Virus record (IMG/VR): IMGVR_UViG_3300030107_004520
Coordinates: 532 to 64,531 of that record
Strand: one strand, 5' to 3'
Source of the DNA: a virus
DNA length: 64,000 nt
Part shown: positions 15,342-62,144 of the stretch, one piece after another
How positions within the stretch are numbered: the first letter of the stretch is position 1
Layout of the letters: every line of letters begins with the position of its first letter
Translations under genes and position numbers: made by a program
Notes under the pieces: model-generated
Told to the model about the DNA's origin: nothing
What the model saw: the letters and a program-made list of their open reading frames with translations, nothing else
Databases searched by the model: none

Positions 15342-16427
15342 TTAAAAGATTACATAATTTATCCCACACTTAAAATCATACCACTCTCTATTCCAATATT
15401 TGTTGTATTTTCCTTCAAAAAAGTAACCTAAACTTTTATTTACTTTTATACCATAAATTAGTCCACCAGAGTAATCGTACCATTGATCACCATCTATATA
15501 GTTGTGATATGAGAACTCGCTACCATCGTTATAATGGTAAGGTAAAACACTACCCCAAGCGTGTAACCAAGTCTTTTTATTATATTTATAATAATCAAAT
15601 CCAACAACTAAAGAATGTTGTATAACATCTTTTAATTCATCTCTTTTCTTTTCAGTATAATTTGCTAATACTTCTGGTACAACAACAGCTTCCCAAACTT
15701 CTGGACTAGTGGCAACAACGTTACCATTAGGATCTGAATATACCGAATTATGTACATCGATATTATAACCTTCTTGTATGGCTAGATACGTATAGTGCAA
15801 ATTACCATTTGATAACATCCATTCTGCTAACGGATCATAACCATAAGGTTCTGCTAATCTATGAGCTAAACCTATATTCCAAGATAAGTGTTTATGTTTT
15901 CTATACCTATATCTTTCTGATGCTTCAAAATACCTTACGTCTGCAAAACCATCTTCTAAATACTCAAATTTTAAAGCAAAGAAATTTATACAAACATCAG
16001 TTTCACAACCATCATCAGAGCTCCATCTAACAAAATGATGTTGATCAATAAAATCTTTACCTTGTTGTCTAGCGTAGTTTACTTCAAATAAATACTCTAA
16101 TCCTCTTACCTTACCAACCGTAGCGGCATCACTATAATTAGTTTCAGTACCATCATAAAAAGCTTTAGCCTTATTTTCATAACCAAATCTTGCTATCTTT
16201 CTAATACCTAATGATAAATTATAATCATAAGGCGTTTGTATTTTCGATGTCTGTAGTCCGTTTTCTATAGAGAACACGTCTACATCTGATATAGAAGTAC
16301 CTCCACTTCCAGCAGCATATATCGTAGAGAATTTCAATAGTTGATCAAAATTTATTTGTCCGCAACAAGTTTTAGGAGCGGCACAAGAAGTTATTATTAT
16401 TAGTAATAGTATTATTAGTTTTTTCAT
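15342..16427 (-). CDS. Exported outer-membrane barrel-like lipoprotein, 361 aa
   Basis: I use the ATG at 16427. A start 30 nt earlier would overlap the preceding gene and spoil the signal. MKKLIILLLIIITSC forms a lipoprotein signal with lipobox ITSC; an alternative type I cut before Q (CCGQ) is possible. The mature protein is Tyr/Trp-rich, has many alternating beta strands (LSWNIGLAHRL; HSLVVGFDYYKYN; YSGGLIYGIKVN) and ends CGINYVIF with a terminal Phe. This fits an outer-membrane beta-barrel. With the neighbouring secreted proteins it forms an exported-protein cassette inside the late operon. Confidence 0.65.
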   Translation of the reverse strand: MKKLIILLLIIITSCAAPKTCCGQINFDQLLKFSTIYAAGSGGTSISDVDVFSIENGLQTSKIQTPYDYNLSLGIRKIARFGYENKAKAFYDGTETNYSDAATVGKVRGLEYLFEVNYARQQGKDFIDQHHFVRWSSDDGCETDVCINFFALKFEYLEDGFADVRYFEASERYRYRKHKHLSWNIGLAHRLAEPYGYDPLAEWMLSNGNLHYTYLAIQEGYNIDVHNSVYSDPNGNVVATSPEVWEAVVVPEVLANYTEKKRDELKDVIQHSLVVGFDYYKYNKKTWLHAWGSVLPYHYNDGSEFSYHNYIDGDQWYDYSGGLIYGIKVNKSLGYFFEGKYNKYWNREWYDFKCGINYVIF

Positions 16428-57203: not shown

Positions 57204-57284
57204 GTTTTTTTTAATTAGCACTATAATCTATATGATTACATGGAAAAGTGGATTTTTACAACTGTGTGACATTAGCTTGTTACT

Positions 57285-57343
57285 CCTATATCCTATAACC
57301 TATATCCTATCCTAGATATTAGGAACTAATATCCTTAGGTATA
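57285..57343. repeat. 7-bp tandem repeats and inverted repeats in the divergent control region
   Basis: Four consecutive units of CCTATAN (starting 57285, 57292, 57299, 57306) are followed by TCCTA-GATAT-TAGGA (57310-57324) and a CCTTAGG palindrome. They lie between the start of the late operon and the first early gene. Iteron-like repeats in such a place are often origin or regulator sites. The block is short, so function is inferred. Confidence 0.5.
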
Positions 57344-57378
57344 GAAAAACATATTATAAATATAGGGGTACTGTGTTG

Positions 57379-57407
57379 CCCCCTCCCTCTACCCCCCTCC
57401 CCTCCCC
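57379..57407 (-). other. G-quadruplex-capable tract
   Basis: On the plus strand five C-runs of 3 to 6 bases (57379-57383, 57385-57387, 57392-57397, 57399-57402, 57404-57407) are separated by 1-4 bases. The minus strand, which is the late-gene coding strand, therefore has five G-runs of at least three within 29 bases. In this AT-rich genome this is strikingly atypical. It lies ~175 bp upstream of the first late gene. Confidence 0.7.
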
Positions 57408-57479
57408 ACAGAAACTCAATCCCTTAACCCAGCCCCGTATGACCCTTTTCACCCCTTTCAATCCTTTTTCAACACTTTC

Positions 57480-57509
57480 TTATTACGAATCATTTCAGAT
57501 AATATATAT
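57480..57509 (+). promoter_or_regulatory. Two-box early motif, copy 1 (diverged)
   Basis: TTATTACGA, then exactly 7 bases, then CAGATAATATATAT. This matches the recurring consensus TAAATACGA-N7-TAGATAATATAAAT with a few changes and the same spacing. The 31-aa peptide gene begins 2 bp after the box. If the AGATAAT part acts like a -10 element, the transcript would start at or next to the ATG. Confidence 0.65.
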
Positions 57510-57511
57510 GT

Positions 57512-57607
57512 ATGAAAACAATAATAGAAATATATAAAATCGGAATTTGTCTCCTCTTCTCACCAATTATAATTACATTCTTAATGGTGAATGAATTGAT
57601 AGACTAG
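57512..57607 (+). CDS. Small single-TM peptide, 31 aa
   Basis: MKTIIEIYKIGICLLFSPII followed by ITFLMVNELID. A short basic/amphipathic start is followed by one hydrophobic segment. It lies directly behind copy 1 of the early motif, which supports it being a real gene despite its length. Early phage peptides of this type often modify host membrane functions or block superinfection; nothing specific can be said. Confidence 0.5.
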   Translation: MKTIIEIYKIGICLLFSPIIITFLMVNELID

Positions 57608-57627
57608 TCGTCAGTGGGTTGTATAAG

Positions 57628-57694
57628 GTCTACCTCTACTATGTAGTTGACAACCGTAGACGAGATGTAGTGTGACCAGATTGGTATGCATCTC
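57628..57694 (+). ncRNA. Structured RNA element, copy A
   Basis: P1 GTCTAC (57628-33) pairs with GTAGAC (57656-61). After CT, hairpin P2 CTAC-TAT-GTAG follows, and then the sequence GACAACC just before the P1 3' strand. P3 starts at the next base: GAGATGTA (57662-69) pairs with TGCATCTC (57687-94), with a GTGTG internal bulge and an ACCA-GAT-TGGT tip. The same order, bulge length and conserved GACAACC and ACCA/TGGT elements recur in copy B, while stem sequences differ but still pair. It does not match a ribozyme or riboswitch that I know. Confidence 0.72.
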
Positions 57695-57712
57695 CAACCT
57701 CAATATGCTGAC

Positions 57713-57742
57713 TAAATACGAACTATAATAGATAATATAAAT
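57713..57742 (+). promoter_or_regulatory. Two-box early motif, copy 2
   Basis: TAAATACGA (57713-57721), 7 bases, TAGATAATATAAAT (57729-57742): a perfect match to the consensus. It stands 29 bp before the 50-aa gene at 57772 and after structured RNA A. Confidence 0.78.
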
Positions 57743-57771
57743 AACTAATAATAATAATTAAATAATTAAAT

Positions 57772-57924
57772 ATGAAAAATAAATTAACTGGAAGATATAT
57801 CCAACATTATTATGACGCAGCAGTAGCTGGCATAATAACAATAGATGAATTCTTCGAATTGTCAATGATTCTACCTACTAGAAATCTATATAAAAGAAAT
57901 TCGCAGATTCTGAATATATTATAA
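57772..57924 (+). CDS. Small early protein, 50 aa
   Basis: Reads MKNKLTGRYIQHYYDAAVAG and continues IITIDEFFELSMILPTRN to a TAA. A basic amphipathic start and mixed helix; no TM segment or motif recognised. A perfect copy of the early motif upstream and a large hairpin 5 bp after the stop make it a self-contained expression unit. Confidence 0.6.
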   Translation: MKNKLTGRYIQHYYDAAVAGIITIDEFFELSMILPTRNLYKRNSQILNIL

Positions 57925-57928
57925 AACA

Positions 57929-57973
57929 GTGACAATAGCCTGTTACTAATACCTCTTAATAGGCTTATGTCAC
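57929..57973 (+). other. Long hairpin after the 50-aa gene
   Basis: GTGACA (57929-34) pairs with TGTCAC (57968-73), and AGCCT (57937-41) pairs with AGGCT (57961-65) across matching 2-base internal loops, closing a 19-nt loop. There is no T-run, so it may stabilise or separate transcripts rather than terminate in the classic way. Confidence 0.6.
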
Positions 57974-58033
57974 AGTGTGGTCTGACTTTGAAATAGCGTT
58001 GAAAGATTATACTCCAACCTACGTCATACTTTC

Positions 58034-58075
58034 TGTGTCATAATGTCATGTCAAGATGTCACATTATTAATCACA
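58034..58075 (+). other. Hairpin immediately upstream of early motif copy 3
   Basis: TGTG/CACA (58034-37, 58072-75) encloses ATAATGT/ACATTAT (58040-46, 58061-67) and an inner CAT/ATG. That is eleven outer pairs in two blocks. It ends 3 bp before the TAAATACGA box at 58079, suggesting an upstream transcript boundary or a regulator-binding inverted repeat. Confidence 0.55.
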
Positions 58076-58078
58076 GGG

Positions 58079-58108
58079 TAAATACGACTCAATTTAGATA
58101 ATATAAAT
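58079..58108 (+). promoter_or_regulatory. Two-box early motif, copy 3
   Basis: TAAATACGA (58079-87), 7 bases, TAGATAATATAAAT (58095-58108): a perfect match. No gene longer than 13 codons follows before the next motif copy, so this one may drive a noncoding or leader RNA. Confidence 0.75.
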
Positions 58109-58234
58109 GTAAACAAACTAAAATGAATAATAAATATAAATTGAATATGACAAATTGTCAGTGACAAAGAGTCATGGTGGTATACCAGTAGTATAAAAAT
58201 ATCAAATAAATAAATTACATACTTTTATACGAAC

Positions 58235-58264
58235 TAAATACGAGATAAAATAGATAATAGAATA
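58235..58264 (+). promoter_or_regulatory. Two-box early motif, copy 4
   Basis: TAAATACGA (58235-43), 7 bases, TAGATAATAGAATA (58251-64). It matches the consensus except for the last bases. It lies 41 bp before the gene at 58306. Confidence 0.74.
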
Positions 58265-58305
58265 AAGATAAATAAATAAATTAATAATTAAATAAAAAAA
58301 AAATT

Positions 58306-58551
58306 ATGTCAGTAGAAAAATTAGAAAAAACTTTAAAATCAAAAAGATTTGTAGTAAGAAAATCATTAATCGGTAAAAATGTAATAATTACATTCACTAA
58401 TAAAAAAGGTGATGAAATAACATATAATCACGATAAAGTGTATGAACTTATGAAAGAAAAACTTGAAACTTTACCATGTTGGGAAAAGTATAAAAGTTAC
58501 ACTGCAACTAATAATATACCATTAGTATGTCGTGGAGTGGAGTTAGTTTAA
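58306..58551 (+). CDS. Hypothetical early protein, 81 aa
   Basis: A basic N-terminal half (VEKLEKTLKSKRFVVRKSLI) is followed by a short strand pair (GKNVIITFTNKKGDEITYNH) and a helical end with two cysteines. No family is recognised. It is driven by motif copy 4, and its 3' region carries structured RNA copy B starting 30 bp after the stop. Confidence 0.7.
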   Translation: MSVEKLEKTLKSKRFVVRKSLIGKNVIITFTNKKGDEITYNHDKVYELMKEKLETLPCWEKYKSYTATNNIPLVCRGVELV

Positions 58552-58581
58552 TAACTCTACTTTTCGTCTCGATATTATAAG

Positions 58582-58652
58582 ATTCACCTTCACCGAGGTA
58601 GGTGACGACAACCGTGAGTACACTGTAGTTGGACCAAAATGGTATATAGTGT
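58582..58652 (+). ncRNA. Structured RNA element, copy B
   Basis: P1 ATTCAC (58582-87) pairs with GTGAGT (58614-19, one wobble). After CT comes P2 TCACC-GAGGTA-GGTGA, then the conserved GACAACC directly before the P1 3' strand. P3 starts at once: ACACTGTA (58620-27) pairs with TATAGTGT (58645-52), with a GTTGG bulge and an ACCA-AAA-TGGT tip. Every helix of copy A is preserved with different bases, so the fold appears to be maintained by compensatory change. It lies after the stop of the 81-aa gene. Confidence 0.72.
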
Positions 58653-58673
58653 GTGTCGAGTATAAATAAACTA

Positions 58674-58714
58674 AGTAGTCTTGGAGTATAAGTGAGTTCG
58701 ATTCTCACACTACT
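58674..58714 (+). other. tRNA acceptor/T-arm-like minihelix
   Basis: AGTAGT (58674-79) pairs with ACTACT (58709-14). Inside is GTGAG-TTCGATT-CTCAC, a perfect 5-bp T-arm with the canonical TTC-R-A-N-N T-loop. A 12-nt segment containing TTGG replaces the D and anticodon arms. It is either a tRNA-like elbow mimic or a degenerate tRNA. A full tRNA cannot be folded here. Confidence 0.45.
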
Positions 58715-58751
58715 ACAATTAAATTAATATAAATTAAATAAATAAATTAGT

Positions 58752-58841
58752 ATGAGTAAGAATTGTGAAAATGCGAGAAATATAGTGTTAGGAGTTTGGA
58801 TAACTCTAGTAAGTATTGTAGTACTATTTTCAAGCTACTAA
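58752..58841 (+). CDS. Small single-TM peptide, 29 aa
   Basis: A polar start (MSKNCENARN) leads into one hydrophobic segment (IVLGVWITLVSIVVLFSSY). The stop overlaps the start of the next gene as TAATG, an arrangement expected for translational coupling, which supports both being genes. Function unknown. Confidence 0.55.
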   Translation: MSKNCENARNIVLGVWITLVSIVVLFSSY

Positions 58842-58963
58842 TGGAGTTATACGAAGCGATACCAATGCCAGATGGTGACCCAATAGAACACTTGAAAATA
58901 ACAGTGATTCTAATAGCTATTTGGTATTTGGTGACGTTAGTGAATGATAAAATTACAAGATAA
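58841..58963 (+). CDS. Small membrane protein, 40 aa
   Basis: An acidic N-terminus (MELYEAIPMPDGDPIEHL) is followed by one TM segment (KITVILIAIWYLVTLV) and a basic end. It is coupled to the 29-aa TM peptide, suggesting a two-component membrane pair. Its TAA stop is also the first three bases of motif copy 5. Confidence 0.55.
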   Translation: MELYEAIPMPDGDPIEHLKITVILIAIWYLVTLVNDKITR

Positions 58964-58990
58964 ATACGAATGTTATTAGATAATATAATA
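58961..58990 (+). promoter_or_regulatory. Two-box early motif, copy 5
   Basis: TAAATACGA (58961-69), 7 bases, TAGATAATATAATA (58977-90). It begins within the stop codon of the preceding gene and lies 13 bp before the next ATG at 59004. Confidence 0.76.
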
Positions 58991-59003
58991 AAGATATAAA
59001 AAT

Positions 59004-59282
59004 ATGAGTAGAAAAATAATACTAGAGTCATACGAGAATAACACTGTTTATGGTGTAAGTGTATTCGATAGTTATGGAGTTGAGCATCACTTAGGTGATA
59101 TTAATGCGAGTGATATAGGAATTTTAAAAATTCATGATAGAAGTATTGCTTCTCATGCTCACCAAATATGGTCAGATGAAGTAGAACCTGAAGAGAATTT
59201 ACTTGGAAATGCTATTAGAGCGTGTAATGAACTTGACAAAGAAAATGGTTTATTAAGAGGAAATAGTGACGGATTAGATTAA
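59004..59282 (+). CDS. Hypothetical early protein, 92 aa
   Basis: A soluble alpha/beta protein: KIILESYENNTVYGVSVFDS, then HHLGDINASDIGIL, and a helical acidic C-terminus (EENLLGNAIRACNELDKENG). No domain is recognised. It heads a run of seven closely packed small genes behind motif copy 5. Confidence 0.7.
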   Translation: MSRKIILESYENNTVYGVSVFDSYGVEHHLGDINASDIGILKIHDRSIASHAHQIWSDEVEPEENLLGNAIRACNELDKENGLLRGNSDGLD

Positions 59283-62008: not shown

Positions 62009-62139
62009 CGAGGTGAGGGTGGTAACGTAATATGCTGTGATCTCTATGAGACAGCCAGTAATTACAAACGGCAGGATAAAGCGAGTTCCGAAACTCGGCT
62101 CACCGAAACCCGGAGAAGAACCACACCTGTCCCACCTCG
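62009..62139 (+). ncRNA. Putative branched structured RNA upstream of tRNA-Asp
   Basis: A closing stem CGAGGTG/CACCTCG (62009-15, 62133-39) is followed by AGGGTGGT/ACCACACCT with one bulge (62016-23, 62120-28). Inside are GTAAT...ATTAC with GCTG/CAGC and TCTC-TAT-GAGA (62027-65), and CGAGTT-CCGA-AACTCG (62082-97). The GC content is far above the surrounding sequence. It ends 5 bp before the tRNA, so co-transcription is likely. It does not fit RNase P, tmRNA or a cobalamin riboswitch as I know them. Confidence 0.6.
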
Positions 62140-62144
62140 TTTAT

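Follow-up and report, generated by a model that had tools for sequence, protein, structure and literature searches.

Viral exoribonuclease-resistant RNAs and 3' tRNA-like structures are compact folds located at or close to the 3' terminus of viral messages, and the known examples act in RNA viruses. The purine riboswitch aptamer is a three-way junction entered by a UAUAA-type strand (J1-2). Compact RNAs also lie between same-strand genes in phage and prophage intergenic regions, where hammerheads (including RAGATH-1-hammerhead, RF03152) are recognized by a CUGANGA...GAAA core. Multiple hammerheads flanking prophage genes have been proposed to process long phage transcripts (Perreault et al., PMC3088659).

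The RNA analyzed here, present in two copies on a stretch of 64,000 bases (the window) of a 68,091-base virus record, has features in common with each of these. Like the hammerheads, it is a compact RNA between same-strand phage genes, and hammerhead-like RNAs fill the same slot in relatives of this phage; however, the CUGANGA plus GAAA core is absent from both window copies, neither has an Rfam hammerhead match, and no cleavage site was identified. It resembles exoribonuclease-resistant RNAs and 3' tRNA-like structures in its compactness and in its location, at or close to the 3' terminus of a viral message, and an adjacent module is tRNA-like, but a ring-forming pseudoknot like that of the exoribonuclease-resistant RNAs was not seen in it by eye, and Rfam gave no match to them. 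The likeness to the purine riboswitch aptamer consists of the three-way junction and the UAUAA-type strand; the arms differ, our RNA lies after a gene and not before one, and the aptamer model has no Rfam match in either copy.

An earlier, sequence-only reading of this DNA knew no RNA family of such a layout, and neither Rfam nor the open-licence literature yielded one to us: neither copy has a match in Rfam 15, and we found no matching description in that literature. Across the window, Rfam 15 reported only a tRNA-Asp. In the region around the copies, matches at E values up to 5 were at chance level, and a tRNA-Sec match overlapping copy 2 scored 18.9 bits against a cut-off of 47.

Architecture of the RNA

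The sequence-only reading had placed two copies of a structured RNA at 57628-57694 and 58582-58652, and both are found there on the plus strand. Each contains the 6-bp helix P1 that it described (GTCTAC/GTAGAC in copy 1, ATTCAC/GTGAGT in copy 2), a CT linker with the P2 hairpin, and an 8-bp P3 with a GTGTG or GTTGG bulge and an ACCA-N3-TGGT tip. Two parts had been overlooked: the outer helix P0 and a UAUAAG linker that does not vary. With these added, the element becomes a three-way junction of P0, UAUAAG, P1 with P2, and P3, in which P1 adjoins P3 and P3 adjoins P0 with zero linker in both cases (Table 1). The GUCG/CGAC pairing in the copy of contig L006 (L numbers are our handles for contigs and loci) is likely, from its sequence, the counterpart of the extra outer helix of copy 1.

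Table 1. Features of the two copies and their surroundings in the window
Feature	Position	Strand	Remarks
Small ORF (31 aa)	57512-57607	+	8 nt separate its stop codon from P0 of copy 1
Copy 1, P0 to P0'	57616-57700	+	88.5 bits with covariance model R1
Extra outer helix, copy 1	57610-57615 with 57707-57712	+	GUCAGU with GCUGAC; MFE fold
P0, copy 1	57616-57621 with 57695-57700	+	
UAUAAG junction linker, copy 1	57622-57627	+	Invariant in 6/6 copies
P1 arm, copy 1	57628-57661	+	GUCUAC, CU, P2 hairpin CUAC/GUAG, GACAACC (57649-57655), GUAGAC
P3 arm, copy 1	57662-57694	+	GAGAUGUA, GUGUG bulge, ACCA-GAU-UGGU tip, A, UGCAUCUC
Promoter-like motif AATACGA-N9-GATAATA	57715-57737	+	Right after copy 1
81-aa ORF	58306-58551	+	Stop codon and P0 of copy 2 are 16 nt apart
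Copy 2, P0 to P0'	58568-58660	+	93.2 bits with covariance model R1
P0, copy 2	58568-58575 with 58653-58660	+	
UAUAAG junction linker, copy 2	58576-58581	+	
P1 arm, copy 2	58582-58619	+	AUUCAC, CU, P2 UCACC/GGUGA, C, GACAACC (58607-58613), GUGAGU
P3 arm, copy 2	58620-58652	+	ACACUGUA, GUUGG bulge, ACCA-AAA-UGGU tip, A, UAUAGUGU
Module C, anticodon-less tRNA-like minihelix	58674-58714 (within 58672-58718)	+	Adjoins copy 2
AATACGA-N9-GATAATA sites	57715, 58081, 58237, 58963, 60150, 61516, 62718, 63442	+	

Two matches to GACAACC-N8..22-ACCA-N2..8-TGGT are present in the window, where 0.03 are expected, and the full 68,091-base record likewise has two. Folding energies are ordinary (z of -0.4 to -1.3 in most copies, -2.6 in that of contig L136); as most are not significant, we dropped folding energy as proof of structure, and the case for the fold rests on covariation among homologues. 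By eye, no conserved long-range pairing or ring-forming pseudoknot was seen across the six copies known to us. An alternative pairing, GGUUGU/ACAACC, is possible in copy 1 alone and is lost in copy 2.

Homologues and covariation

Of the findings that were to refute the sequence-only reading (no further copies, no covariation, a clear Rfam match), none came about; pattern scans of IMG/VR revealed four further copies in three other contigs. The family thus comprises six copies in four phage contigs: two in the window, one in L003, two in L006 and a diverged one in L136. The L136 copy has no P2 and reads AUUCAUCC (CAUCC) in place of GACAACC, while UAUAAG, CANCC and the P3 tip are kept. GACAACC, described earlier as invariant, is present in both window copies and in five of the six overall, so the constant part is CANCC.

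In an alignment of the six copies (A2), with 26 base pairs counted outside P2, 99.3% of pair cells are paired and 16 of the 26 pairs show changes on both sides, a result obtained in 0 of 500 shuffles. The covariation score is 0.677, compared with 0.288 in shuffles, and sliding the partners by 1 to 3 columns lowers pairing to 23 to 43%. This set is small, and because three of its six sequences are near-identical orthologues of copy 2, the independent changes are fewer than the cell counts. On the plus strand G-U pairs are tolerated, and it folds better than the other strand in five of the six copies. The interpretation in the sequence-only reading is largely upheld. Its wording, strong evidence for a conserved fold, claimed more than two copies from one genome could give; it is the covariation among homologues that now argues for such a fold. 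As judged from these sequences, the three-way-junction structure is well supported, and there is good support for regarding it as a new structured RNA family. Its function we infer from position only.

The ACCA/UGGU tip stem of P3 and the GUNNG/A internal loop are unvarying in all six copies, with neighbouring helices that vary freely. The same tip, GUNNG-ACCA-N3-UGGU-A, recurs at L186:6352-6372, inside a tRNA-like element of another phage.

The family is rare. A covariance-model search, the check proposed with the first reading, recovered the known copies with model R1 and no others across roughly 160 related loci, made up of a first set (the window plus 82 loci) and 79 additional ones, partly from the same contigs. 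The cultured relatives elemoF (a Flavobacterium phage) and phi38:1, as well as the Manatee Spring phage, contained no copy by R1. A loose pattern, ATAAG-CT-GACAACC, run on viral contigs gave real copies only in contigs already known, among the matches listed; the relaxed TATAAG..GTNNGACCANNNTGGTA matched 33 stretches, of which the real ones were again in known contigs and the rest were chance or coding by inspection. Six pattern matches in a genome collection all lacked the surrounding structure by inspection. Among annotated phages, nothing matched the region at the DNA level, and the 81-aa ORF had no relative there.

Genomic setting

The portal and terminase of the phage match PHROG head-and-packaging families, and the portal shares 53% identity with its counterpart in the Manatee Spring phage and 41% with the portals of Flavobacterium elemo phages. 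The two window copies follow two different ORFs, and in every copy of the family the distance from the stop codon to the start of P0 is 5 to 16 nt, on the same strand. Relatives of the 81-aa ORF mark a syntenic slot in other phages.

The motif AATACGA-N9-GATAATA occurs eight times in the window, always on the plus strand, with 0 expected, and is likely an early promoter of the phage. In the window and in L006 alike, a gap of about 14 nt separates copy 1 from this motif, which places copy 1 at the end of one unit and not in the leader of the next.

Identity between the window and L003 is 92.7% for the element and 70.3% for the adjacent ORF; between the window and L006 it is 96.5% for copy 1 and 81.2% for the 31-aa ORF. 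Compared with the same, closer L006, copy 2 is no better conserved than the 81-aa ORF (93.5% versus 98.8%), and the conservation argument therefore rests mainly on L003 and copy 1.

Other structured RNAs in the same slot

Pattern labels were assigned to the 260 nt that follow relatives of the 81-aa ORF, using the best 80 of 213 relatives; a second locus set, the best 80 of 87, overlaps this one. After three duplicates and two short stretches were left out, 75 labelled loci remained. At least one pattern-recognized module is present in 67 of these 75 distinct relatives, an upper estimate because B, D and E were labelled with loose patterns; the label for C is the firm one. Besides the three-way junction, the slot holds tRNA-like minihelices (C), an H-type pseudoknot (B), a hairpin with a conserved loop (D) and hammerhead-like RNAs. 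By label, the loci divide into BC (16), DBC (12), E (8), C (8), none (8), DB (4), DC (4), B (4), DE (3), AC (2), CE (2) and one each of H, BH, ABC and G.

In the window, module C begins 13 nt after copy 2, with no pseudoknot B between them, and consists of an acceptor stem (AGUAGU/ACUACU), a GG-bearing loop and a T-arm (GUGAG-UUCGAUU-CUCAC). It occurs in many relatives, for example at L136:6367-6411 and L175:5124-5169, between early genes and on the early-gene strand. In its acceptor and T-arm, 100% of cells are paired and 10 of 11 pairs have changed on both sides, with a constant UUCGAUU T-loop. Scanning gave 72 distinct matches, including ordinary tRNAs and some chance hits, versus 16 in shuffled sequence; a covariance model (R2) gave 50 matches at E values up to 0.1, all on the plus strand. 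Module C is like tRNA and the tRNA-like domain of tmRNA in its acceptor, its T arm with a UUCGAUU loop and its GG-bearing loop, but has no D stem and, in the 30 aligned copies, no anticodon arm; it received no ARAGORN call and no Rfam match.

Module B (for example L141:6280, L175:5078, L212:6228, L305:3234) lies mostly just 5' of the tRNA-like module. Its pseudoknot strands (S2) covary, as in ACUUGUUU/GAACAAGU, ACUAUUC/GAAUAGU and ACUCGUUU/GAACGAGU. A pseudoknot search reached a score of at least 20 in 17 of 55 real stretches, a set picked by eye, compared with 6 of 165 shuffles; several of the listed matches fall inside module C. Module D, often found 5' of the pseudoknot, is a hairpin with the conserved loop UGAAGUNCNGANUAG and a covarying stem (for example L140:6248, L172:4551, L190:6236).

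Hammerhead-like RNAs, lying between early genes, were recognized by core pattern at L137:6225, L157:6235, L178:4521 and L211:766, and by eye in L300 after 3213. They are candidates, since only the one in L157 reached an Rfam score, and a weak one (32.6 bits against RF03152, cut-off 56.3, E value 0.1). A hammerhead-like core pattern is also seen on the minus strand near 16096 of the cultured Flavobacterium phage elemoF (L335), where stem II looks weak.

Possible roles

The RNA lies after stop codons, is indifferent to the upstream ORF and is exchanged for other structured modules, three features that point to a function at the ends of messages. Our preferred reading, to which we assign a probability of roughly 0.4, is that each copy acts in cis, between cistrons or in a 3' UTR, to set or protect the end of the transcript of a small early phage gene. 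Once ribosomes have gone, the folded module would halt exonucleases that degrade the upstream message from its 3' end; alternatively, it would part that message from the next unit of a cotranscript. UAUAAG, CANCC and the GUNNG-ACCA-N3-UGGU-A tip might form a tertiary core or a protein site. The presence of different folded RNAs in one slot suggests a kit of parts that mark or protect transcript ends. The three-way junction would be one interchangeable part of this set, alongside the tRNA-like minihelices and the hammerhead-like ribozymes, which would do the cutting. RNase P and RNase Z accept acceptor-T-arm minihelices, and the minihelices found here are plausible substrates of both. The rarity of the three-way junction implies that it is not essential to the lineage.

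A position close to the stop codon would also fit an RNA that is processed out of the transcript. Such an RNA, or one made independently, could act in trans, for instance with the P3 tip as the docking site for a protein of the host or the phage. A tip and GUNNG/A loop fixed in 6/6 copies amid free helices is what one would expect of a binding site, and the tip recurs in the tRNA-like element of L186, yet the RNA always lies on the 3' side of a same-strand ORF, no AATACGA-N9-GATAATA-type motif directly precedes either copy, and no terminator-like site (a GC-rich hairpin plus a U run) occurs in 57222-59010, so we regard action in trans as rather unlikely. It is unlikely, too, that the three-way junction is a domain of a larger composite RNA, in which it or hairpin D would be the 5' module, followed by pseudoknot B and the tRNA-like 3' end C. 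The three-way junction does precede B and C in L136 and L003/L179, the order D, B, C is found in many relatives, copy 2 is closely followed by C, C covaries strongly on its own and B has covarying pseudoknot strands; against this, copy 1 stands alone with neither B nor C, C and B also occur without the three-way junction or D, and the window has no B between copy 2 and C.

Other classes of ribozyme were found by such neighbourhood logic, and the compact junction, its conserved unpaired bases and the hammerhead-like RNAs directly 3' of the same ORF in L137 and L157 would suit a new self-cleaving ribozyme, an idea made improbable by the lack of a known core, an Rfam match or an identifiable candidate cleavage site. 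A riboswitch-like leader of the downstream gene is very improbable: the junction and UAUAAG linker resemble the purine J1-2 strand only distantly, as a lead, whereas a promoter-like motif separates copy 1 from the next ORF, the downstream genes vary between copies and contigs, and no Rfam riboswitch matches. Unexceptional folding energies and a family of only six copies might hint at chance or a coding-sequence artefact, which the covariation and the rarity of the pattern, together with P2 length differences that are not multiples of three, make scarcely credible.

Tentatively, the modules that follow early genes in this phage lineage (three-way junction, H-type pseudoknot and anticodon-less tRNA-like 3' end) may combine into multi-domain RNAs or transcript-end markers. 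We know of no such combinatorial RNA-module system. The setting is one in which several types of structured RNA replace one another behind the same gene. Should these modules set or protect the ends of transcripts, the phages would own a swappable toolkit for dividing early transcripts, anticodon-less tRNA mimics included.

Additional structured stretches

Two further regions of the window appear to hold structure. At about 57930-58070 there is a possible UGUGACA..UGUCACA hairpin, also present in many relatives, and a possible structured stretch, CUGACUUUGAAAUAG..CUCCAACCUACGUC, that resembles one in L201. At about 62030-62140, immediately ahead of the tRNA-Asp gene, lies a probably structured stretch whose 3' part, AGAACCACACCTG, has counterparts at L138:8996 and L161:9446.
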